Origin: a virus
Direction: 5' to 3' (one strand)
IMG/VR virus record: IMGVR_UViG_3300012920_000049
Coordinates: 1-55,551 of that record
DNA length: 55,551 bases
Below the pieces are notes generated by a model, which made no database searches, was not told the origin of the DNA, and saw nothing but the letters and a program-made list of their open reading frames with translations. The position numbers and the translations under genes were made by a program. This document shows, in pieces, positions 13,144 to 50,516 of this stretch. Within the stretch, counting starts at the first letter, position 1. The number at the start of each line of letters is the position of its first letter.

Positions 13144-13180
13144 AAAAAAAGAGGGTTCCGAAGAACCCCCTTAGTTTTTT
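13144..13180. terminator. Bidirectional rho-independent terminator with TTCG loop
   Basis: Stem gggttc (13153-13158) and gaaccc (13163-13168) closes a CGAA loop, which reads as TTCG on the minus strand. Seven T residues follow on the minus strand and six follow on the plus strand. It ends the fibre unit 13191-16343. Confidence 0.85.
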
Positions 13181-13611: not shown

Positions 13612-14733
13612 CTATAATGTTGTTTTCTTAACTGAAACAGTTGTGTTAGTATTAGCAGGTGTAATCAGAATTCTTTGTGAACTTCCTGACACGTCTGCGT
13701 CCAATGTAAACAATGAAGCATTAGTGAACACGTCACCAAACTGGACGAAGTATGCGTCCGAACCATCGTTTGTTAAAGTCACTTCTGCATAGTGTGAACC
13801 CGCAGTAGCATGAGTTGCTACTAATTCAAACTTAACTCCCTTAATTCCTGTTGAAACACTAGCTAACACTTGGTCTGCTGTTGTAGCAGAGAATGTTGTA
13901 GAGTTTCCAGCAGCTGGAAGTTTAATATATGAACTGGATACACTTGTATTAGTATTTGTTGGAGTGATTAACAATCTCATATCTGAACCACTAATATCAG
14001 TTGCAAGACTGAATAGACTTGAACCTGTAAATGTGTCTGCAAATTGTGAGATATAAGAATCACTTCCGTCATTTACTACTACGACTTCTGCAAAGTGAGC
14101 TCCTGCTGTAGAGTGGGTTGCAACCAAGTTGACTTTAATCGCTTTGTTTGCAACGGGAACCGACAATAATGCTTGGTCTGCATTTGTTGTTGTCAAGTCA
14201 GAACTTCCTGTAGAAGCACTTGTTGACGCAGAACCAGGCGTTCTAATTACAACTACGTCACCACTTACTGCATTTGCTTGTAATGTGATTGTAGAAGTAT
14301 TAGTTGTTGCGTAGTCGGCACCTCCGTCTACTAATAAAACACCATTTAGGTATACTTGTTCTTCACCAATCGAATAGGACAATGTTTGTCCGTCATCGTC
14401 ATTTCCTGAGAAAATTGTTTGGTTAGAAGATACAGTGTAAGTGAATACATTATCTGATGAAGACGATGAGTCTGCAAAAGAAAGTGTTCCACTTCCGTCT
14501 GTTTGTAATACTTGTCCTGATGTTCCATCTGAAGTTGGAAATGTAATAGCATCATTAATTGTCAAAGAGGCGGGGACTGACCCTACCTCGACAACGGCAG
14601 CCGAACCATCATTCTTCTCAGTATAAAACCTACCATGGTAAGTATTGACTGCTAATTCACCAAGAACTAGGTCACTTACGCCTGGGGTTGCATTCTGAGT
14701 AGAACTCTTTTTAAATGTAATTACAGTTGCCAT
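13612..14733 (-). CDS. Tail fibre-like protein with internal domain duplication
   Basis: A 373-residue protein. The N-terminus 'VITFKKSSTQNATPGVSDL' is paralogous to that of the next upstream fibre. A central 'FTYSVSSNQTIFSGNDDDGQ'-type segment resembles one in the 405-residue fibre. The C-terminal half contains two tandem ~90-residue copies of one domain ('KVNLVATHSTAGAHFAEV' and 'KFELVATHATAGSHYAEV', each followed by NDGSD and RLLITP/RILITP). Likely a receptor-binding fibre. Confidence 0.75.
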   Translation of the reverse strand: MATVITFKKSSTQNATPGVSDLVLGELAVNTYHGRFYTEKNDGSAAVVEVGSVPASLTINDAITFPTSDGTSGQVLQTDGSGTLSFADSSSSSDNVFTYTVSSNQTIFSGNDDDGQTLSYSIGEEQVYLNGVLLVDGGADYATTNTSTITLQANAVSGDVVVIRTPGSASTSASTGSSDLTTTNADQALLSVPVANKAIKVNLVATHSTAGAHFAEVVVVNDGSDSYISQFADTFTGSSLFSLATDISGSDMRLLITPTNTNTSVSSSYIKLPAAGNSTTFSATTADQVLASVSTGIKGVKFELVATHATAGSHYAEVTLTNDGSDAYFVQFGDVFTNASLFTLDADVSGSSQRILITPANTNTTVSVKKTTL

Positions 14734-14762: not shown

Positions 14763-16343
14763 TTAAAATGTTCCACCATCAATAGCAGTAATTGCAACAT
14801 CACCTGAAGTGAGTGTGAAATTATCTGAGTCGAATGAAGCTATACCTTTTGTTGAAGTTGTTGCATCGTTAATTGCTACGTCACCACTAGTCACTGTAAA
14901 GTAAGAAGCGGAGAATGAAGCAATACCCTTGTTAGAGTCTGTTGCATCTTCAGCTGAAAGGGTTATACTTCCGTCTGCATTTGTGACATCAATACCTTCA
15001 CCAGCAGTAAGTGTTCCAAGTGCCATGTCACCATTAGTTCCATGACCGATTAGAATCTGACCTGCTGTAGGAGCTGACCCGTCAATTGATGTGATTGAAC
15101 CCGAAAGTGCTAATCCACCAAATTTAACATTACCAGCTGTTCCTGAGAAAGTTGAAGATGAATCAGTTGCATCAGGTATAAATGTAAATGCAGCGTCGGT
15201 ATCATCGTATCCGAAGAAACCTACTTTTGCACCACCTGAGTTATACTTAAATTTCAAACCTCTATCAAGGTTATCATCTGAACCATCGTCACCGATTTCA
15301 AACACTGGGTCAGCAACTGAAGTAGTTGTTGAGTTTACAGTTGTAGTAGTTCCGTTAACTGTTAAGTTTCCTGTCACAACAACGTTTCCTGAAGCAGTCA
15401 TTGTCGCTGCAGTAATATCGTCTGATTGTAATTGACCTGAAACAACTAAGTTATTTGTGACTGTTAAGTCGTTTCCGACTGTCACGTCATTTGGTAAACC
15501 TACTGTTATAGTTTGTCCTGAAGCAGAAGTTTCAATCTCGTTAGATGTTCCAGCGATTGTTAAACTTTGTGAATCTAAGTCGACTGCACCTGTTCCACTG
15601 TCACCAGCTACGTCTAGGTCTTCTGCAGTCACTTTTGATTCAATAAGGTCTTGAACCGCTGCAGCTGTCAAGACTGAGGTGTCATTATCACCGAATCCAT
15701 TTACACCAGCTAATTCAGCTGATGTTTGAACCATTGCACCATCTAACATTGAGAATTCTACTGCACCAGCAGAAATTGTCACCGCACCACTTGATGCAAG
15801 TGAAATATCACCACTGATTGCTACGTTGTCAAACGAATCTGACCCGTCATGAACAAGAATGTGTCCTGAAGCAGGGTTAGAAATGTCTGAGTCTGATGCA
15901 CCAGCAAGTGTTGAAGTAGTAGATAAGAAAGATAAGTTTCCTGACCCGTCTGTTCCTAATACTTGGTTTGCACTACCATCTGAAGAAGGCAGAACAAAGG
16001 ATACATTCGCTGCTAGTGTATCGGGAGCTTTCAATGCAACGGAGTTTGTTCCGTTGTCTGAATCTTCCATTAACTTTAATGAACCACCTGAGGTTGAACC
16101 ATTACCAACTAAAAAGTCGGAAGGTGTTGCAGAAGAACCTGCTAACATATCCGTATAATACTTACCACCAATAGCTTGTATTAAAGGAGTGCTGTTATCA
16201 GAATCTACTGATTCAATAAAAAGTTTTGCACTAGCACCTGAATTACTCCTATCTTGCACATAAGCTAATTCACCCTCAGCTAAGTCTGATACAGCTGGAG
16301 CGGCAGAGCCTGTGCTTCTTTTGATTTGAATAACTGTTGCCAT
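14763..16343 (-). CDS. Tail fibre-like protein ending DGGTF (526 aa)
   Basis: A 526-residue T/S/D-rich fibre with 'IQIKRSTGSAAPAVSDLAEG' at the N-terminus, the shared 'NLTVNGTTTTVNSTTTSVAD' block around residue 330, a 'KFKYNSGGAKVGFFGYDD' segment typical of marine T4-like fibres, two 'KGIASF' repeats near the end and a final 'TAIDGGTF'. It is preceded by a weak AGGAA Shine-Dalgarno and by an unusually long structured leader. Confidence 0.75.
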   Translation of the reverse strand: MATVIQIKRSTGSAAPAVSDLAEGELAYVQDRSNSGASAKLFIESVDSDNSTPLIQAIGGKYYTDMLAGSSATPSDFLVGNGSTSGGSLKLMEDSDNGTNSVALKAPDTLAANVSFVLPSSDGSANQVLGTDGSGNLSFLSTTSTLAGASDSDISNPASGHILVHDGSDSFDNVAISGDISLASSGAVTISAGAVEFSMLDGAMVQTSAELAGVNGFGDNDTSVLTAAAVQDLIESKVTAEDLDVAGDSGTGAVDLDSQSLTIAGTSNEIETSASGQTITVGLPNDVTVGNDLTVTNNLVVSGQLQSDDITAATMTASGNVVVTGNLTVNGTTTTVNSTTTSVADPVFEIGDDGSDDNLDRGLKFKYNSGGAKVGFFGYDDTDAAFTFIPDATDSSSTFSGTAGNVKFGGLALSGSITSIDGSAPTAGQILIGHGTNGDMALGTLTAGEGIDVTNADGSITLSAEDATDSNKGIASFSASYFTVTSGDVAINDATTSTKGIASFDSDNFTLTSGDVAITAIDGGTF

Positions 16344-16383
16344 TTTTCTATTCCTATAGTTTATGTAAAATTAATTAATTAAT

Positions 16384-16464
16384 TCTCGTTCACTATCCCG
16401 AGAGATTCATAATATAAAACTAATCCACTCACAATGTGGGTCGATACCTTCACTGGTCGGTATC
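16384..16464 (-). ncRNA. Candidate structured leader RNA: three hairpins exposing GUGA
   Basis: Between the late promoter at 16482-16489 and the fibre ATG at 16343, the minus-strand RNA can form GATACC/GGTATC (16443-16464), CCAC/GTGG (16425-16439) and TCTCG/CGAGA (16384-16403). The loops are GACCAGUGAA, AUUGUGA and GGAUAGUGAA, so all three present GUGA, and the outer two are 10 nt and end AGUGAA. No known RNA family was recognised. Confidence 0.45.
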
Positions 16465-16481
16465 CTTGATTTGTGTATATT

Positions 16482-16489
16482 TATTTATA
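16482..16489 (-). promoter_or_regulatory. T4-type late promoter -10 box for the fibre leader
   Basis: Exact TATAAATA on the minus strand. The next gene starts at 16343, leaving a leader of roughly 135 nt, much longer than other leaders in this window. Confidence 0.65.
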
Positions 16490-16492
16490 CGA

Positions 16493-16738
16493 TTAAAACG
16501 TTCCACCATCTAAAACAGTTGTGGTTGTCCACTTATCTGTTTCAGCATCGTATGAAAGTAGTCCGTCATCTGTTTCTGAAGCATTTACATCTGCAAGTTC
16601 ATTGATAGATTTTGCAGAAAGGTTTACATTAGAAGATGAATTACCGATTGCGACCTGTTTAGCACGGATATTTCCTTGTCCTGCTACTCGACCACCTATG
16701 GTTGCTACTCTTGATATTGTTCCTTTTATTCCTGACAT
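16493..16738 (-). CDS. Small structural protein ending DGGTF
   Basis: An 81-residue protein with a basic, glycine-rich N-terminus ('GTISRVATIGGRVAGQG') and a C-terminus 'KWTTTTVLDGGTF' shared with the ends of two fibre proteins. Probably a fibre-associated or adaptor protein. The Shine-Dalgarno GAGGTAA lies inside the end of the upstream gene, 3 nt away. Confidence 0.65.
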   Translation of the reverse strand: MSGIKGTISRVATIGGRVAGQGNIRAKQVAIGNSSSNVNLSAKSINELADVNASETDDGLLSYDAETDKWTTTTVLDGGTF

Positions 16739-17092: not shown

Positions 17093-18430
17093 TTATTGTT
17101 GAGTATTACTTGGATTCTTACTAAATCTAGCAGCTGGGACTGTTTGGTGAATTTTCTCTATTGTTCCTGCGTTATTTACGTAAACTTGGTCTATTTTTTC
17201 AATATTCTGTCCGTCTTTATTTAGATAAATTGCCTTTACTTTTGCAATCGGGCCGATAGTTCTACTTGTTGCATAAGGTGTTTGAGTTATATAAGGTGAC
17301 CTATGTATATACGGAACCTGATAACTAACCTGATAAATGTTAGGTTGTCTTGCATCATTCTGAGTAGCTACCTGTTTATTCACTGGATTCTGATATGTAG
17401 AAGGTTGTTGTGCAATATACGGACTCTGTTGTTGTGCCTGTGCAATATATGGACTTGGTTGTCTAGCAGGAGCTCTAACTTGGTTCTGAACGTCTTGGTC
17501 TGCTTGAACAGTTATCTGTTGTTGAAGTTCTAAAGGTTGTCTTAGAGGTTGTTGTGCATTATGTGGTGTTCTAAAAGAACTTCTACCAATCACGGGTTGT
17601 TGTGCTTGAATTTCTTGTTGTGCATCGGCAGGAACTTGCACTGGATTTTGTGCAACAAAACCTGGCGTTCTCACAATTGTTGGTGCTGACGAAGAACGAG
17701 CAGGCAATGTATATGAAACTGGAAATCCATTATACTGAAATACTATAGGTTGTTGAACTAGAACCTGACCAGTTCCAGGCTGGGTATATGCAACTTGAGT
17801 AATAGCACCTTGTTTTATTACTGGTGTTCGTGTTGCATGAAGCCATTGAGCACTACCCGTCACGTCCCAACCATCTCCCTGAGGCCCTTGATAAAAAATA
17901 AAGTCTTCTATTGGTTCCTTATATTTTACATTTTCGATTTGATACCAATAGATATATGGTGAACGACCAAACGAGTGACTTTGAACAGAAACAGGCCCTA
18001 CCTGTTGAACATTTACTGTAGTAATATATGGAGAGCGGTCTATATAAGGACTTCCAACGTTTATTGGTTGTTGACCTTCTATCTGATAAGTAAAAGGACT
18101 CTGATATTCACTTTGTGCAATATAAGGACTTGGTTGTTGTGAATCTACTTGTGTTATCGAAGGACTTCTAAAAGGACTTTGATAATCTATCTGTTGTTGT
18201 GCATCAAAAGTAAATGGATTACTCTCTTGTGCATTTATATCTGTTTGTGCATTTACTGGGTTTCTATATGTTGTAGGAGTCTGACTTGGACTTTGATAAA
18301 GTGTTTGACTACTAACATCTGTTTGTTTTACAATCTGTTTAACTTCTGGCGATTGAGCATTAGCGGGTGTCTGACCTTGATAAGGTTGCTGAAAAGAACT
18401 TCCTATATTAATGTAAATTTCGTCTGACAT
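17093..18430 (-). CDS. Large QSPYIAQ/NAQ-repeat structural protein (445 aa)
   Basis: A 445-residue low-complexity Q/P/Y/S/A-rich protein with many degenerate units ('QQPSPYIAQ', 'NPVNAQ', 'RSPYITQ', 'QVPYIHRSP'). It has a non-repetitive insert at about residues 150-225 ('WYQIENVKYKEPIEDFIFY') and a C-terminal 'AKVKAIYLNKDGQNIEKIDQVYVN' segment. Shares its repeat style with the genes at 8392-10175, although separated by ~7 kb. Likely a long flexible virion fibre or whisker. Confidence 0.65.
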   Translation of the reverse strand: MSDEIYINIGSSFQQPYQGQTPANAQSPEVKQIVKQTDVSSQTLYQSPSQTPTTYRNPVNAQTDINAQESNPFTFDAQQQIDYQSPFRSPSITQVDSQQPSPYIAQSEYQSPFTYQIEGQQPINVGSPYIDRSPYITTVNVQQVGPVSVQSHSFGRSPYIYWYQIENVKYKEPIEDFIFYQGPQGDGWDVTGSAQWLHATRTPVIKQGAITQVAYTQPGTGQVLVQQPIVFQYNGFPVSYTLPARSSSAPTIVRTPGFVAQNPVQVPADAQQEIQAQQPVIGRSSFRTPHNAQQPLRQPLELQQQITVQADQDVQNQVRAPARQPSPYIAQAQQQSPYIAQQPSTYQNPVNKQVATQNDARQPNIYQVSYQVPYIHRSPYITQTPYATSRTIGPIAKVKAIYLNKDGQNIEKIDQVYVNNAGTIEKIHQTVPAARFSKNPSNTQQ

Positions 18431-18439
18431 TTCATCTCA

Positions 18440-19657
18440 TTATATAACAAACCACAAGTGACCTTCTACTGTTCCACTTGCACTTGTGGGTGCGGAGTTA
18501 ACTGTTTCATAGTCTAACTCAACTGTATCATTATTTATTTCGATTCCTTTTGCAGTATTTACACTCATGTTTCCTGTTGAAGAATTATATGCAAGTCCGT
18601 CACCACCAGCAATAGCACCTCTTGCGTCTGAGTCTGTATATGTTGCACCAGCAGTAAATGAAAGTGTTCCAGCATTATCATCATACGACACTGATATATT
18701 ACTATGTGTTGCACCTGTAATCATTGAAGCAGCTGCATCTTGAATTCTTTCTGTCGTAGAAAATAAATTAGTTGTTCCTTCTGTAAGGTCGTCTGTATCA
18801 CCACTTAATGTAGAAAGAGATTGGTTATCTGCTGGTTCCCAATATCCATTTGCATTATCCCATGTAAGGATTTGACCATTTGAAGGTGTTGTGGTATAAT
18901 TAATGTCTGATAATCCACTTGCAGAATGTGTAGATATACTTGTGACTGTTCCTGAACTCCCTGAAACATTTCCAGTGACATTTCCAGTGAGGTTTCCAGT
19001 GACATCTCCAGTTAAATCACCAACAAAAGAATCTGCAGTGACACTTGCTCCAGGCTGGAAAGTTATAGATTCTTGTGAGAATATACCTGTTCCACCTGAA
19101 TCGAATTCTATTTTCGCAGGTGTTGTAAGTGTAGTTGTTCTTCCAGTTGCAGAACCATTTAATATTATACCATTTGAGTTTTTATTGTAAATAGTATTTT
19201 GTGCTGTTTCAGTAAACTGTCCGTCTGTTCCACCACCAGCACCAATTGCACTTCCTAAGTATGAACCTGTATATGCATAGATAGTGATAACGTCACTTGC
19301 ACTTGCACCTACGTTAAGTGTAATTTCTGTATGTTTGTTTCCGTCAACACCACCGATTGAGTAATCTGTTCCTAAAAGTAAATGGTCTGAGTTTTTAAAT
19401 ACTTGGATTCTTTCACTTCTAAAAACAAGTGAATTGTTTGCAGAATCATTACCTGAGAATACAGTTTGACCACTAGTTGCACTATATTTAAACTCTTGAA
19501 AGAAGAATGATTTATCTTCTAAACTATTAAGTGCATCAACAATGTTTCCAGTTTCTTCTGTTCTAAGGCCATTCAATTCTCCAACGTCAACTGCAAGTTC
19601 GTTATACTTGGTTCTAAAATTTTCTATCGTTGAAAATTGGTCTACTGTTTTTGCCAT
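18440..19657 (-). CDS. Tail fibre-like protein (405 aa)
   Basis: A 405-residue fibre protein with an N-terminal helical region ('FSTIENFRTKYNELAVDVGEL'), a 'YSATSGQTVFSGNDSANNSL' module, the repetitive 'GDVTGNLTGNVTGNVSGSSG' beta-helix-like stretch near residue 215, and a C-terminus 'GTVEGHLWFVI'. The stop-start overlap with the small coiled-coil gene upstream (19657) shows operon organisation. Confidence 0.75.
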   Translation of the reverse strand: MAKTVDQFSTIENFRTKYNELAVDVGELNGLRTEETGNIVDALNSLEDKSFFFQEFKYSATSGQTVFSGNDSANNSLVFRSERIQVFKNSDHLLLGTDYSIGGVDGNKHTEITLNVGASASDVITIYAYTGSYLGSAIGAGGGTDGQFTETAQNTIYNKNSNGIILNGSATGRTTTLTTPAKIEFDSGGTGIFSQESITFQPGASVTADSFVGDLTGDVTGNLTGNVTGNVSGSSGTVTSISTHSASGLSDINYTTTPSNGQILTWDNANGYWEPADNQSLSTLSGDTDDLTEGTTNLFSTTERIQDAAASMITGATHSNISVSYDDNAGTLSFTAGATYTDSDARGAIAGGDGLAYNSSTGNMSVNTAKGIEINNDTVELDYETVNSAPTSASGTVEGHLWFVI

Positions 19658-44696: not shown

Positions 44697-47234
44697 ATGG
44701 ATGACGGAACCAAGAGTATAAGAGAACAACGGGAAGATTTAGCTAAAGAAATCAAAGACGTTAATGCTAAACTGAAGCCTGGTTTTCAAAAAATCATATC
44801 AGATTTAGAAGAAGTTTCTCCACAAGTTGCTAAGATAACTGCAGACTTTAGGGAATCTAGTAAGGATTCCTTTACGGGTGCATTGGCAACTAGAAAATTA
44901 AAAAACCTCACTGGTCTTGTCGACAAATATATGAAAGAGGGTGAATCAGCCCTTGACCCTAAAGAACTCAAACAATTACAATCAAACTTCTCACAAGAAA
45001 TTGATGGTGTAATGGAAACCTTCGACTTTGAAGGAATGAGAAATGCACAATTAGAATTCAATGCAACTCAAGACGCATTAATAGAACTTGAAGACAAAAA
45101 ACAAGCAAGACTTGAAGTTGCACTTAAAAGAAATAATGTTCTCGGTCAATTAGATAAAAAGATTGACGATGCACGTGCAAAATCATTTGGTTTACAAGGT
45201 GCAGCCTTAAACGAGAACACTAAACTCATAGAAGATTTACAATCACAAAGAAAAGAAAAACAAGACGAAATCACTGCAGCCTTTGATAGAGAGATTGCAC
45301 TAGAGAAAAAATCATTAGAAGAAAAGAAAGAAGCACTCTCAGAATCTACTGAAGCATATCAAAAAGGTTTAGAACAAGCAACTAAATTTGAAGGTATGGA
45401 GAAGTTCAGTAGTGGTATTGAAGAACTAACTGGAATTGATATACTTGGTTTTGCTGATACAGTCACTAAGAAAGTAAATGCAATTAGTGACGTTATGGGT
45501 TCAATCGGTGGTGTCTTAGGTGACGCAGGTAAAGGACTCAAAGATAAAGTCGGTGGTTTCATGGAAGGTTTCAAAAACCTTCTTACACCTAAAGCAAAAG
45601 AAGGTGGTAAAGACGAAGGTGTTATCGGTGGTGCATTAAAAGATAAAGCAAAAGGAATGGCTGCTGGTATGTCTTCTGACCAAGCAGATAAGTCAACTGG
45701 TATCACAAAGAAAGCAGGTAAGAGTGGTGGTTTCTTAGGTGCAATTGCAAGAGGTGTTAAAAGATTTGGTGACTCTAAAGTATTAAAAGGTGCATTGACA
45801 CTTGCGATACTTGGTGGAACAATCGGTATTCTTGCAGTCGGACTTAAAGCATTCCAAGGTTTAGATTTCAAAACACTATTAACTGGTTTTGTTGCACTTG
45901 GTGGTTTAATACTATTTGCAAGATTAATCGGTAAAGCAACAATGGGTATCTTAAAAGGTGCCGCTGCTATCTTTGTATTAGGTGCCTCATTAATCCCATT
46001 TGCATTTGCACTTAACTTAATGAAAGACGCAGGTATAGGAACCATAGCTGCAATTGCAATCGGTCTTACTGTTCTTGGAGTAGCAGCCTCAATACTAGGT
46101 GGTATGCTTCCTGTTATTGCACTAGGTGCTGTTGCAATCGCATTACTAGGTGCAGCTCTAATTCCATTTGCATATGCAGCTCAACTAGCTGCACAAGCAT
46201 TCAATATGTTCATAACGGATATATTGAAACTAAGTTTAGTTGATGGTGGAAACTTAATTCTAGTTGGTGTTGGATTAGCAGCTATTGGTGCTGGTCTAGT
46301 TGCAATGACTGGTGGTGGACTCATAGGAAGTTTATTAGAAGGATTAGGAAGTCTATTCGGTGCAAAATCTCCTATGGAGAAAGTGACTGACTTTGCAAAA
46401 GGTTTAGAAGACGTTGACATGACTAAGATAGTTGACCTAGGACAAGCATTCGAAAAATTACAAAATGCAGAAGGTGCTATAATGTTATTCAGTAATGTTG
46501 ATGCGAAAGCAAAAGGTCTAAAACGATTTGCAGAAGGTATAGACGAACTAACTGCCGCACTAATCAGATTAGAAGAAGGAGCTCCTAAGAAACAAAGTTG
46601 GTGGGATAAAATGACTGCACTTGCAAGTAAAGTCATGGGAACAACACCACAACAAAGAACTGAAGAACAGATTGCACAATCCGAAGATAGATTAGTTAGA
46701 AAACAAACTGCTCGTGACCAAGTTCAAGTAGACCCAACTGGTAGGAACGGCCCAGTGACAGATAGTGCAATGTCATGGGAAATGTGGGAAACCAAACAAA
46801 AACTTCTTGCAGATAGAGCAGAAGCATTCCCTGAACATGAAAAAATGCGTCAAGAGTTTATGTCGGGTAAAGGTGAAATGGAAACTGCAACTGCAGAAAT
46901 GCAAGCAGAAGAAATTAGATTGTCTAGATTACAACAACAGATGATAGAACATAATATTGTTGCAAGACAAAAATTCGGAATACCACACTTATATTCACCT
47001 GATGAAATTGCAGCTGCTGGAGTTCAAGACCAAGGTGGTCAAATCGCAGGTGCAAGAGAAGACGCAGGAATGGGTGGACAAGGACAAGGTGCTCAAGTTG
47101 CAATGGCTAACAGCACAAACCTAATGATGAGTGGTCAAACTTATAATGATATCAATCCACCAAGAGTAAACAATGACGATGCTTCAGTCTATAAGTATGG
47201 TGGTGGTATGGGATATGGAGAAGACGACTTCTAG
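44697..47234 (+). CDS. 29: Tail tape measure protein (gp29-type)
   Basis: An 845-residue protein. The N-terminal ~230 residues are strongly coiled-coil ('IREQREDLAKEIKDVNAKLK', 'EKKSLEEKKEALSESTEAY'). A glycine/lysine-rich region follows, then several hydrophobic G/A/L/I segments between ~360 and 550 ('LTLAILGGTIGILAVGLKAF', 'IPFAYAAQLAAQAFNMFI'), and a polar C-terminus. This is the standard tape-measure architecture, and it follows the G/GT-like chaperones. It is larger than T4 gp29 (590), so the tail may be longer. The stop overlaps the convergent gene's stop. Confidence 0.82.
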   Translation: MDDGTKSIREQREDLAKEIKDVNAKLKPGFQKIISDLEEVSPQVAKITADFRESSKDSFTGALATRKLKNLTGLVDKYMKEGESALDPKELKQLQSNFSQEIDGVMETFDFEGMRNAQLEFNATQDALIELEDKKQARLEVALKRNNVLGQLDKKIDDARAKSFGLQGAALNENTKLIEDLQSQRKEKQDEITAAFDREIALEKKSLEEKKEALSESTEAYQKGLEQATKFEGMEKFSSGIEELTGIDILGFADTVTKKVNAISDVMGSIGGVLGDAGKGLKDKVGGFMEGFKNLLTPKAKEGGKDEGVIGGALKDKAKGMAAGMSSDQADKSTGITKKAGKSGGFLGAIARGVKRFGDSKVLKGALTLAILGGTIGILAVGLKAFQGLDFKTLLTGFVALGGLILFARLIGKATMGILKGAAAIFVLGASLIPFAFALNLMKDAGIGTIAAIAIGLTVLGVAASILGGMLPVIALGAVAIALLGAALIPFAYAAQLAAQAFNMFITDILKLSLVDGGNLILVGVGLAAIGAGLVAMTGGGLIGSLLEGLGSLFGAKSPMEKVTDFAKGLEDVDMTKIVDLGQAFEKLQNAEGAIMLFSNVDAKAKGLKRFAEGIDELTAALIRLEEGAPKKQSWWDKMTALASKVMGTTPQQRTEEQIAQSEDRLVRKQTARDQVQVDPTGRNGPVTDSAMSWEMWETKQKLLADRAEAFPEHEKMRQEFMSGKGEMETATAEMQAEEIRLSRLQQQMIEHNIVARQKFGIPHLYSPDEIAAAGVQDQGGQIAGAREDAGMGGQGQGAQVAMANSTNLMMSGQTYNDINPPRVNNDDASVYKYGGGMGYGEDDF

Positions 47235-47788
47235 AAAAAGTCCTCCAACGAACCTTCTTTACAATCTACTAAATCTCCTTCCATAGAATCTAACACTTCT
47301 TTTGCTTCGTCAACTGAAATCTTAAACCATTCACCATTACATACAACTCCTCTTTCAGTTAGAAGTTGTTGAAACTCTAGTTCTCCTTGTCTTCTATTTT
47401 TAAACCATTTGTAATATCTTAGTTCATAATCTCTGAAAGGACTTCCAGTTTGATATCCATTACACCTATCTTGTGCAACGGAAGCTTTACCAGTGCATAC
47501 CCATTCGGGATAAGCAGGATTTGTAATTATATAAACGTCACCACTTAACACTTTATCTTCTAAACTCTTTGCAAGTGTTAACATATCTTCCCGACTTTCG
47601 ATACCTTTGGGTGGAATAATTTTATCTATACTTCCTCCCTGTTGTAGATATCCGTCAATAGTTCTCCATTCAACCTTATAAAAGATTCTACCCTTTTCGT
47701 CCATTTGGTGATTGACTCCATTCTTTCTCCATGTATGTCCGTCCCATTTCTTTCCGTCACTACGGATATCACCATACTCGGGTTTCAT
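47231..47788 (-). CDS. GIY-YIG / T5orf172-like nuclease-domain protein
   Basis: A 185-residue protein. Residues ~84-145 fit the GIY-YIG/T5orf172 pattern: 'VYIITNPAYPEWVCTGKA', R108 in 'DRCNGYQTGSP' and an acidic 'QGELEFQQLL' (E136 or E138). The preceding region has 'DGKKWDGHTWRKNG', possibly DNA-binding. It could be a homing-type or host-DNA nuclease. It is encoded convergently with the tape measure; the two stops share CTAG at 47231-47234. It overlaps the gene upstream by 4 nt. Confidence 0.7.
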   Translation of the reverse strand: MKPEYGDIRSDGKKWDGHTWRKNGVNHQMDEKGRIFYKVEWRTIDGYLQQGGSIDKIIPPKGIESREDMLTLAKSLEDKVLSGDVYIITNPAYPEWVCTGKASVAQDRCNGYQTGSPFRDYELRYYKWFKNRRQGELEFQQLLTERGVVCNGEWFKISVDEAKEVLDSMEGDLVDCKEGSLEDFF

Positions 47789-47996: not shown

Positions 47997-48116
47997 TTAA
48001 AATAGTGAAGGTTGGAAATTTAAATAGATATAGATTGCACCTATCAAACAAACTATACCTACAACAGTAGAGATTATCCACTGTCTTATAATTCTCTGTT
48101 CTCTTTTACTTCTCAT
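47997..48116 (-). CDS. Micro membrane protein (39 aa), coupled to bS21
   Basis: A 39-residue ORF: basic start '[13 protein letters not shown]', then one hydrophobic helix '[19 protein letters not shown]'. The ATG at 48114-48116 overlaps the TGA of the bS21 gene as ATGA, a strong sign of coupled translation, and the stop lies just before the next ATG. Likely an inner-membrane micro-protein of unknown role. Confidence 0.6.
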
Positions 48117-48349
48117 CGAATATGTCTATAACCTTTCATAGAAGCACGTTTAGCTTCTATTTTCTTTCTACGTTTAATCTCTTGATTCTTTTGATTCCTT
48201 TTAGTGTTAGGTTTCTCATAATATTGTCTATCACGGCATTCTTGAACGATACCTTTACGTTCACATGCTTTTTTGAATCTACGTAGCATTCTATCGAAAG
48301 GTTCGACATTTTTATTCTTAGGATTAATTCTTGGTTTTACACTCGGCAT
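48113..48349 (-). CDS. rpsU: Ribosomal protein bS21, phage-encoded
   Basis: A 78-residue homologue of small-subunit protein bS21: '[20 protein letters not shown]' and '[20 protein letters not shown]' followed by a lysine/arginine-rich tail, matching the bacterial 'EPFDVALRRFKRSCEKAGI...EFYEKPTTxRKR' pattern. bS21 sits near the anti-Shine-Dalgarno of 16S rRNA. Phage copies are known from marine viruses and may bias host ribosomes toward phage messages. It is followed by a coupled micro membrane protein. Confidence 0.92.
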
Positions 48350-48350
48350 A

Positions 48351-49238
48351 TTAACTAAAAAATTGTTCTAAAGATTCTACTTTATTCTTTATTTTATCTG
48401 AGTTAGAAACTAACTCCCCACTTTTACGAAACACTAAAATGAACTCATGCACTTTTGCAGTGTATCTTTTACTTGCACACTTACCTGCTTGTAAGGCTGC
48501 AAATATGGTGTCGTTCTTCATTACAATAATGTCATGAAGATTTAGACCAGCCATTGTGAACATATTTATGGTATCTGAATGGAAAGGAATGTATTCACCA
48601 CCTTTTCTCCAATCACCACAAACCCATACACAAAACCCGCCAGGTTTCAACACACGTTCTATATTCTGTCCACATATTTCTATACGATTACGGAACTCAG
48701 TATAACTTCTAATATCAGATAACTGACCTTCTGCACTTTCGTATCTTTCTATGTCACCATAAGGTGGACAAGTCATAACTAAGTTTGCACTCTCATCATC
48801 TGTATGGGACATTTCACACCCGTCACTCTCTATGATATCATAGTATCCGTCAAAAGAATGTCTTCCCATTTCTTCTCTAACTTTTTTTACTGTTTCGGGA
48901 GATACGTCATAACCAATGTAATCTCTTCCTAATTTAGCAGACACGAATGCACGTGTCATTCTTCCAGCAAAAGGGTCAACGATTGTATCACCAACCATAG
49001 ACCAATAGTGAACTATATTCTCACATAAACCAGCATGAAACTCTGACATCATTAAACCATTAGGAAGACGAGGACAAACACCTCTCTTTTCTTCATACGC
49101 AGTTAAGTATGCGTCGTCCCAATTGTTCTTAGATGATTTAGTTGGTGTTATAACTGACTGAGGGTTCCAACCAAACTGGTCGATAACCCTTTCGTTTTCG
49201 TTCCATGGTAGAACGTTTTTATAATATTCACTTTTCAT
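48351..49238 (-). CDS. DNA methyltransferase (N4/N6-type)
   Basis: A 295-residue SAM-dependent DNA methylase. Motif IV-type '[13 protein letters not shown]' (CPPY at 157-160) replaces S/TSPPY. Motif I-type '[17 protein letters not shown]' and '[14 protein letters not shown]' bind SAM. '[20 protein letters not shown]' is the usual motif after the catalytic loop. The target recognition region is small. The target site is not readable from sequence. The ATG overlaps the stop of a possible small ORF (ATGA). Confidence 0.82.
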
Positions 49239-49404
49239 AATCTATTAAAGTGTGAAGTCACCCCACGCCTTACAGCAACCCGTTCTTCACCAATCAACTC
49301 CGCACCTGTAATGATGTTGTTGATTTTTCCCTTACTAAGCACCCCCTAATTTCCACGGCCTTAGTGTTGTAGTCGTCTTTATTCACGGACACATTTTGAA
49401 ACAA
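49235..49404 (-). pseudogene. Possible small frameshifted ORF between gp32 and the methylase
   Basis: This 187-nt gap is more GC-rich than its surroundings. One frame (TTG 49404 or GTG 49392 to TGA 49294) reads 'VSVNKDDYNTKAVEIRG'. The -1 frame from a run of five G's at 49342-49346 (GTG 49342) reads 'VLSKGKINNIITGAELIGEE' and '[15 protein letters not shown]', ending at TGA 49235 that overlaps the methylase ATG as ATGA. Together they would make a ~56-residue protein broken or recoded at the G-run. Unrecognised. Confidence 0.35.
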
Positions 49405-49425
49405 ACGACTACCCCAAATTAGAAA

Positions 49426-50325: not shown

Positions 50326-50371
50326 TGTATTCTCCTATTGTATCGCATTGTATTAGCATTTTATCTTTGCA

Positions 50372-50389
50372 TAGAAACCTTAGTTCCTA
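50372..50389 (-). promoter_or_regulatory. Hairpin in the gp32 leader, possible autogenous operator
   Basis: Minus strand TAGGAAC-TAAG-GTTTCTA forms a 7-bp stem with one G-U pair and a 4-nt loop, starting about 10 nt after the sigma70-type -10 box. A ~35-nt A-rich, unstructured stretch then leads to AGGAG and the ATG. T4 gp32 represses its own translation through a similar layout of 5' structure plus unstructured tract. Confidence 0.45.
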
Positions 50390-50396
50390 TACTCCT

Positions 50397-50425
50397 ATTA
50401 TAGTGTATTACTGATAATCCTACAA
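50397..50425 (-). promoter_or_regulatory. Sigma70-like promoter for gp32
   Basis: Minus strand -35 TTGTAG (50420-50425) and -10 TATAAT (50397-50402) separated by exactly 17 nt. It lies ~72 nt upstream of the gp32 ATG and would give early/host-type transcription. Confidence 0.7.
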
Positions 50426-50448
50426 GAGGGTTTCTCAGAAATACCATA

Positions 50449-50456
50449 TATTTATA
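50449..50456 (-). promoter_or_regulatory. T4-type late promoter box upstream of gp32
   Basis: Exact TATAAATA on the minus strand, 123 nt before the gp32 ATG and ~24 nt upstream of the sigma70-type -35. It gives gp32 a second, late promoter. Confidence 0.6.
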
Positions 50457-50516
50457 TAATTTATTTTCTTAGGATTTGTTTTTTTATACATAATAATGTT
50501 ATGTCTATAACCCGCT

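Follow-up and report, generated by a model that had tools for sequence, protein, structure and literature searches.

CsrA/RsmE-type leaders and decoys expose one short loop motif on several hairpins, so that a protein is bound multivalently; the thrS operator consists of tRNA-like hairpins, and the put RNA of phage HK022 places hairpins at the 5' end of the phage transcript. In T4, gp32 is autoregulated through its own leader. The T4 examples treated in the relevant part of PMC3014915, namely control by gp43, gp32 and RegA, mostly concern early and middle genes. According to one section of PMC9004378, Melnitz-like phages carry a glutamine riboswitch, and a section of PMC7029224 reports a negative riboswitch scan for pelagimyophages. 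The leader described here does not figure in these parts of the three papers, and searches of open-access papers brought up no description of it.

The window, i.e., the whole stretch of 55.5 kb that was analysed (36% G+C), belongs to the genome of a marine T4-like myophage, of which it covers a part. Judged by its gp6-like baseplate protein, the nearest isolates are Methylophilales phage Melnitz and Pelagibacter phages Mosig and HTVC008M, followed by cyanomyophages, at 35–42% identity. On the minus strand, a gap of 149 nt (16344–16492) extends from the stop of an 81-aa gene (16493–16738, minus strand) to the start of a tail-fibre gene, the first of a three-gene operon closed by a strong terminator (Table 1). 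The preliminary description had placed this leader between a late promoter and the 526-residue fibre gene and had called it the only one of about 140 nt in the structural operons, and both statements hold: the promoter box lies 138 nt from the start codon, compared with 5–41 nt for the other late-promoter boxes in the structural operons, where all other gaps measure at most 103 nt.

Table 1. Features of the fibre operon and its leader in the window.
Feature	Position	Strand	Basis
T4-type late promoter box TATAAATA	16482–16489	minus	Sequence; 138 nt upstream of the fibre start codon
AUCAA, unpaired 5' segment, nearly invariant	16466–16470	minus	70-leader alignment
P1 extra closing pair G16465–C16440, enclosing the GA bulge (16442–16441)	16440–16465	minus	70-leader alignment
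Hairpin P1, GAUACC-GACCAGUGAA-GGUAUC	16443–16464	minus	Sequence; covariation
Hairpin P2, CCAC-AUUGUGA-GUGG	16425–16439	minus	Sequence; covariation
Linker AUUAUG (consensus AUWAUG)	16408–16413	minus	70-leader alignment
Hairpin P3, UCUCG-GGAUAGUGAA-CGAGA	16384–16403	minus	Sequence; covariation
Short A/U hairpin, CUAU-AGGA-AUAG, whose loop holds the Shine-Dalgarno AGGA	16348–16359	minus	Suggestive only
Tail-fibre gene, 526 aa, 3' of the leader	14763–16343	minus	PHROG matches to structural, baseplate and tail-fibre families; same gene in the relatives inspected
Second operon gene, N-terminus resembling the fibre	13612–14733	minus	Sequence
Third operon gene, 136 aa	13191–13601	minus	Sequence
Intrinsic terminator closing the fibre operon	13149–13172	minus	10-bp stem followed by a T run

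Beside the fibre cluster lie two genes for large proteins without a PHROG match (17093–18430 and 18440–19657, minus strand), which have homologues in related genomes; the product of the former is rich in Q/P/Y repeats (e.g., QQPY, NARQP in relatives). Long upstream gaps also occur at two genes outside the structural operons, those for gp32 and a DNA methylase. The 191-nt gap before the gene for gp32, the single-stranded DNA-binding protein (50326–50516, minus strand), includes, at 50456, a TATAAATA box that lies 123 nt from the start. The 187-nt region (49239–49425, minus strand) upstream of the predicted N6/N4 DNA methylase gene (48351–49238) is a candidate structured RNA in its own right, with the complementary segments GTAGTCGT...ACGACTAC, CTAATTT...AAATTAG and AATCAAC...GTTGATT, and matched no family in an Rfam scan at gathering thresholds. 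A T5orf172/MUG113-domain protein encoded beside the methylase and S21 genes (47231–47788, minus strand), absent from the compared genomes, is possibly a mobile endonuclease.

The three hairpins that had been proposed in the leader, with the loops given for them, were all found exactly so, and they lie on the minus strand, the strand having been left unnamed at the time. P1 begins about 20 nt past the promoter box and stands at the 5' end of the transcript or close to it; P2 follows P1 directly, and 28 nt separate the end of P3 from the Shine-Dalgarno sequence. Folding of this single sequence was not significant, with a minimum free energy of −24.8 against −22.2 ± 3.4 in shuffled sequences (z = −0.77). 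In the minimum-free-energy fold P1 is present, but P2 and P3 pair with each other, a pairing unsupported by the covariation scan described below. None of the three hairpins was among the matches of a terminator scan, an intrinsic terminator being a GC-rich stem followed by a U run.

To find relatives, the fibre protein was used as a query, which returned 263 sequences, with 78 loci kept. Fibres at 55–100% identity are preceded by the same leader, except at locus L079 and at a few loci whose sequence stops short of the leader, and altogether more than 100 IMG/VR stretches carry it at the beginning of this fibre gene. Exact scans of IMG/VR located the P1 core in 14 stretches and the P3 core in 27, and a scan with the P2 pattern GAMCCWCATWGTGAGWGGAY matched at least 119. 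Nearly all distinct contexts among the P2-pattern matches listed show the beginning of one and the same gene (ATG-GCA-ACA-GTA...), the sole exception on a viral contig among them being one chance match (L181). Across about 85,000 genomes of bacteria and archaea, the same pattern matched seven times; six of these matches have an unrelated context, and the seventh (L211) is the whole leader, on a phage-like contig binned with a Sphingobacteriales MAG. Of 79 distinct leaders, 61 have a late-promoter box of the form [TC][AC]TAAATA upstream, mostly 33–38 nt 5' of the GACC that follows P1. Isolate phage records gave no significant match to the leader: covariance-model matches in Mosig and Melnitz were sub-threshold or absent, and HTVC008M, in which short gaps divide the annotated genes of the fibre region, had no blastn similarity to it.

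In each of 20 virus records, up to 153 kb long, one convincing copy of the leader was found. Candidates for second genomic copies were weak matches, and those inspected, in the window and in G019, contain many broken pairs; Mosig and G010 also gave sub-threshold matches. The element is absent from the other late operons. Single AGUGA hairpins elsewhere occur at background level in five records, without enrichment, so that a regulon of such hairpins was rejected, and together with the single copy per genome this indicates an element with one target rather than a phage regulon. These surveys establish that the leader occurs once per genome, before this fibre gene, across a large clade of marine T4-like phages. 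Locus L079, with a fibre about 63% identical and a leader without the element, represents a natural loss, and in nine of 70 leaders (L051, L053, L167, L170, L182, L081, L119, L150 and L155) P3 is missing or lacks the AGUGA loop; the element, or one of its hairpins, is thus dispensable in places.

A covariance model of 16 pairs found 72 leaders, and the statistics refer to 70 distinct rows. The check put forward in the preliminary description, conservation and covariation of the stems in relatives with the same gene order, was run, and the leader passed it. Stem cells are paired in 99.8% of cases, compared with 34–51% when the arms are slid against each other; 11 of the 16 pairs have changed on both sides, and double-changed cells number 294, against 86.8 ± 13.2 in shuffles. 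P1 is 99.6% paired, with five of its seven pairs changed on both sides and stems as different as GATACC/GGTATC, GTTGTC/GACAAC, GTGTC/GACAC, GTGAC/GTCAC, GGATTC/GAATCC and GGAAC/GTTCC; its extra closing pair is G-C in 66 leaders and U-A in four. The middle pair of P2 is A-U in 46 leaders, U-A in 24 and broken in none. On a quickly built tree of 80 fibre N-termini this pair flips at least 16 times, a count that fibre recombination could inflate. In P3, all five pairs have changed on both sides and every cell is paired, the variants including TTCTCG/CGAGAA, GACCT/AGGTC, GACTC/GAGTC, TTTCGT/ACGAAA and TTCTAG/CTAGAA.

A structure-blind scan of the 70 leaders by mutual information with average-product correction put stem pairs in the first eight places and detected no extra long-range pair, and unconstrained RNAalifold returned the same three hairpins. 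Both analyses used the model-fitted alignment and are therefore biased towards the model; the compensations are visible in the raw sequences too. A possible pseudoknot between the P2 loop and the linker (CAUWGU with AUWAUG) was refuted by the paired columns 39 and 65, which hold 21 U-U and 18 A-A rows. Among the stem cells, G-U combinations occur 15 times and A-C combinations never, which identifies the structured strand as the sense RNA. Covarying stems and a fixed sense-strand position before one homologous gene are general marks of a conserved structured leader RNA, and with very high confidence we interpret the 5' leader of the late fibre mRNA as one.

The loops behave differently from the stems. 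In P1, about 56 of 70 leaders show CAGUGA, within loops of 8–10 nt, and about 10 of 70 P1 loops lack GUGA (CAUUGA, CAAUGA, CUUUGA and similar). The P2 loop reads AU[AU]GUGA in 69 of 70, a figure partly fixed by the search pattern, although the leaders found through the fibre protein agree with it; the base before GUGA is A or U, with both states common and at least 20 switches on the fibre tree. AGUG is kept in the P3 loop of 61 of 70 leaders. The resulting loop forms are CAGUGA in P1, U[AU]GUGA in P2 and [UCA]AGUG[AC] in P3, and the majority forms have just four bases in common. A loop that repeats three times while the stems drift is what one would expect if a binding site is recognised through its loop, so that the earlier suggestion of a repeated binding element, GUGA(A) loops on unrelated stems, is strongly supported.

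Unpaired positions outside the loops are conserved as well. In the alignment of the 70 leaders (A3), the 5' segment reads AUCA in all rows, with A as the fifth base in 69; the GA bulge of P1 is present in 70 of 70; and the linker columns are A63 (70/70), A66 (69/70), U67 (70/70) and G68 (64/70). The AUWAUG linker is unpaired and precedes the fibre start by about 65 nt. An upstream open reading frame at this linker was rejected, the frames varying among relatives and some reading AUG-UAA when inspected by eye. The hairpin with the Shine-Dalgarno sequence in its loop has four pairs in the window and 7–8 bp in many relatives, and reaches at least 6 bp in 72% of relatives versus 11% of other genes; AT-rich control genes, a few of the fibre leaders themselves among them, score about the same. 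Such a hairpin would suit translational control, but it is only suggestive, since A/U composition explains part of the signal and the window has four pairs.

Given its structure and its fixed place, the leader is very likely a cis-regulatory element controlling the production of the fibre protein. On balance, we lean towards a mechanism in which a protein that binds the repeated loops sets the translation or the stability of the fibre mRNA. An RNA-binding protein of host or phage origin would recognise the AGUGA-type loop on the late transcript, binding the hairpins cooperatively, and would thereby alter translation of the fibre mRNA or protect it, whose ribosome-binding site follows about 30 nt further downstream, where the RNA is rich in A/U and weakly structured. 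In this way the amount of fibre would be tuned against that of the other late structural proteins. A protein partner is favoured over a simple shield or a ligand because three hairpins repeat one loop. What counts against this explanation is that the leader has no clear sequestering pairing with the ribosome-binding site, that some relatives do without P3, its AGUGA loop or the whole element, and that the genome comparison described next points to no evident RNA-binding partner.

A comparison aimed at the trans-acting factor yielded 37 families common to four element-bearing genomes and absent from the three isolates; those examined include no evident RNA-binding protein. S21 and RegA are present also in phages without the element, and the presence or absence of candidate trans genes reflects phylogeny. 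The S21 homologue of the window (48113–48349, minus strand; Pfam PF01165) has counterparts in HTVC008M, Mosig and Melnitz.

An unlikely alternative to binding by a specific protein is a 5' stability element, whose hairpins would keep host RNases away from the 5' end of the fibre mRNA, with the loops read by no specific factor. The position of the first hairpin, so close behind the promoter, agrees with this; a simple shield, however, needs neither a triple loop nor an invariant GA bulge nor the AUWAUG linker. The same conserved bulge and loops, in a structured RNA right after the promoter, would also fit a leader that modifies the polymerase, as a put-like RNA or a nut-like protein loading site, to make it resist pausing or termination. 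This antitermination reading is improbable: the operon has just three genes before its strong terminator, the other late operons do without the element, and the only terminator found on the minus strand near the fibre gene is the one at the operon end, with none found between it and the leader.

No more probable is a partner made of RNA, a small RNA or rRNA with which the loops would pair, for instance as a ribosome standby site. The conserved 3' end of 16S rRNA, GAUCACCUCC, contains UCAC next to the anti-Shine-Dalgarno sequence, and the GUGA core is complementary to it. The complementarity shared by the three loops amounts, however, to four bases, the P2 base before GUGA switches at least 20 times on the tree, and GUGA is lost in about 10 of 70 P1 loops. 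The first two of these points likewise disfavour the antisense-RNA sites that had been offered as the other explanation of the repeated loops.

A version of protein control that we regard as rather remote makes the leader a sensor of the late-infection host state, through a moonlighting host RNA-binding protein (an aconitase-like iron sensor acting through the CAGUGA loops, or another regulator) that would set the amount of the receptor-binding fibre. Predicted bacterial aconitase targets include CAGUG loops (PMC3912134). An IscU-like iron-sulphur scaffold is encoded by the four element-bearing genomes, e.g., in G002 at 147490–147888 (IMGVR_UViG_3300046167_000554, the record behind L101; NifU_N, E = 1e-38), and BLAST finds none in HTVC008M, Mosig and Melnitz. 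This distribution is compatible with host iron sensing and may only mirror phylogeny. If true, it would mean host-state-dependent control of phage host recognition.

A small-molecule riboswitch, in which the compact domain of P1, GA bulge and P2 would sense a metabolite, is very improbable. It would account for segments that are unpaired yet invariant (AUCAA, GA and AUWAUG), but not for one loop in three hairpins; there is no alternative expression-platform pairing, and the linked gene is structural, not metabolic. The whole window gave no match to Rfam 15 at gathering score, in line with the preliminary description, which had recognised no known riboswitch family; the best sub-threshold match on the leader strand, the S15 leader, scored 16.4 bits against a cutoff of 39.5. 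Least probable is autogenous control, with one hairpin bound per subunit of a presumed fibre trimer, for although one target per genome, three hairpins and linkage to the fibre gene would fit, all three operon proteins are acidic and the fibre has a pI of 4.05.

With protein binding to the loops as the preferred reading, the leader implies an RNA-binding factor, of phage or host, new to these systems, for which it offers a defined bait. The RNA family that it represents has apparently not been described before and occurs in marine myophages that are uncultured and widespread. The covariation leaves little doubt that the structure is real, and the leader is tied to one gene only, that of the tail fibre, a class of protein that helps to determine the infection range of a phage. 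A further suggestion is that in marine T4-like phages late structural genes, too, come under cis-acting RNA, unlike most of the T4 examples named at the outset.

Among the described systems, the gp43 operator of T4 and RB69 is likewise a phage mRNA hairpin, some 40 nt upstream of the start codon, with loop bases read by protein (in the pertinent part of PMC3014915). It is, however, a single hairpin with a loop of the UAAC/CAAC/UAAA class (UAAC) at gene 43, whereas here AGUGA-type loops precede a late fibre gene, so that a gp43-type operator fits poorly. For RegA, homologues of which are encoded by all four element-bearing genomes fetched, the likeness lies in the linker, AUUAUG(UAA), which resembles the SELEX consensus aaAAUUGUUAUGUAA given in the same part of PMC3014915. 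RegA sites are nevertheless unstructured and overlap or lie just 5' of the true start, whereas the AUG of the leader stands upstream in no consistent frame; with its linker location and structured context differing, a RegA operator fits poorly.

The CAGUGN hexamer in the P1 loop of about 56 of 70 leaders recalls iron-responsive elements. The leader lacks the 5-bp upper stem and bulged C of these elements, its hexamer is not closed by the stem, and the P2 loop and most P3 loops differ; no constant unpaired C lies five pairs below the loop, and the sole bulge is the GA on the 3' side. In the absence of the bulged-C geometry, the leader is not classed as an iron-responsive element. As in a thrS-type operator, the 7-nt loop of P2 has U at the U33 position and WGU at the anticodon position; the P1 and P3 loops, however, are not of 7 nt, the stem has 4 bp and the gene is a fibre gene without tRNA-synthetase context, so that a tRNA mimic of this type was rejected. 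With HK022 put, the leader shares hairpins at the transcript 5' end and differs in serving one late operon only, with no intervening terminator found for read-through.

The likeness to CsrA/RsmE-type leaders is the repetition of one loop motif on several hairpins. The motif itself is different: the loop sequence is AGUGA rather than GGA, which is absent from P1 and P2 and occurs in some P3 loops only, so that the leader is no CsrA/RsmE target. By analogy, it would nonetheless work like a multivalent hairpin-loop binding leader, and, belonging to no catalogued family, it apparently forms an undescribed RNA family of a known kind.
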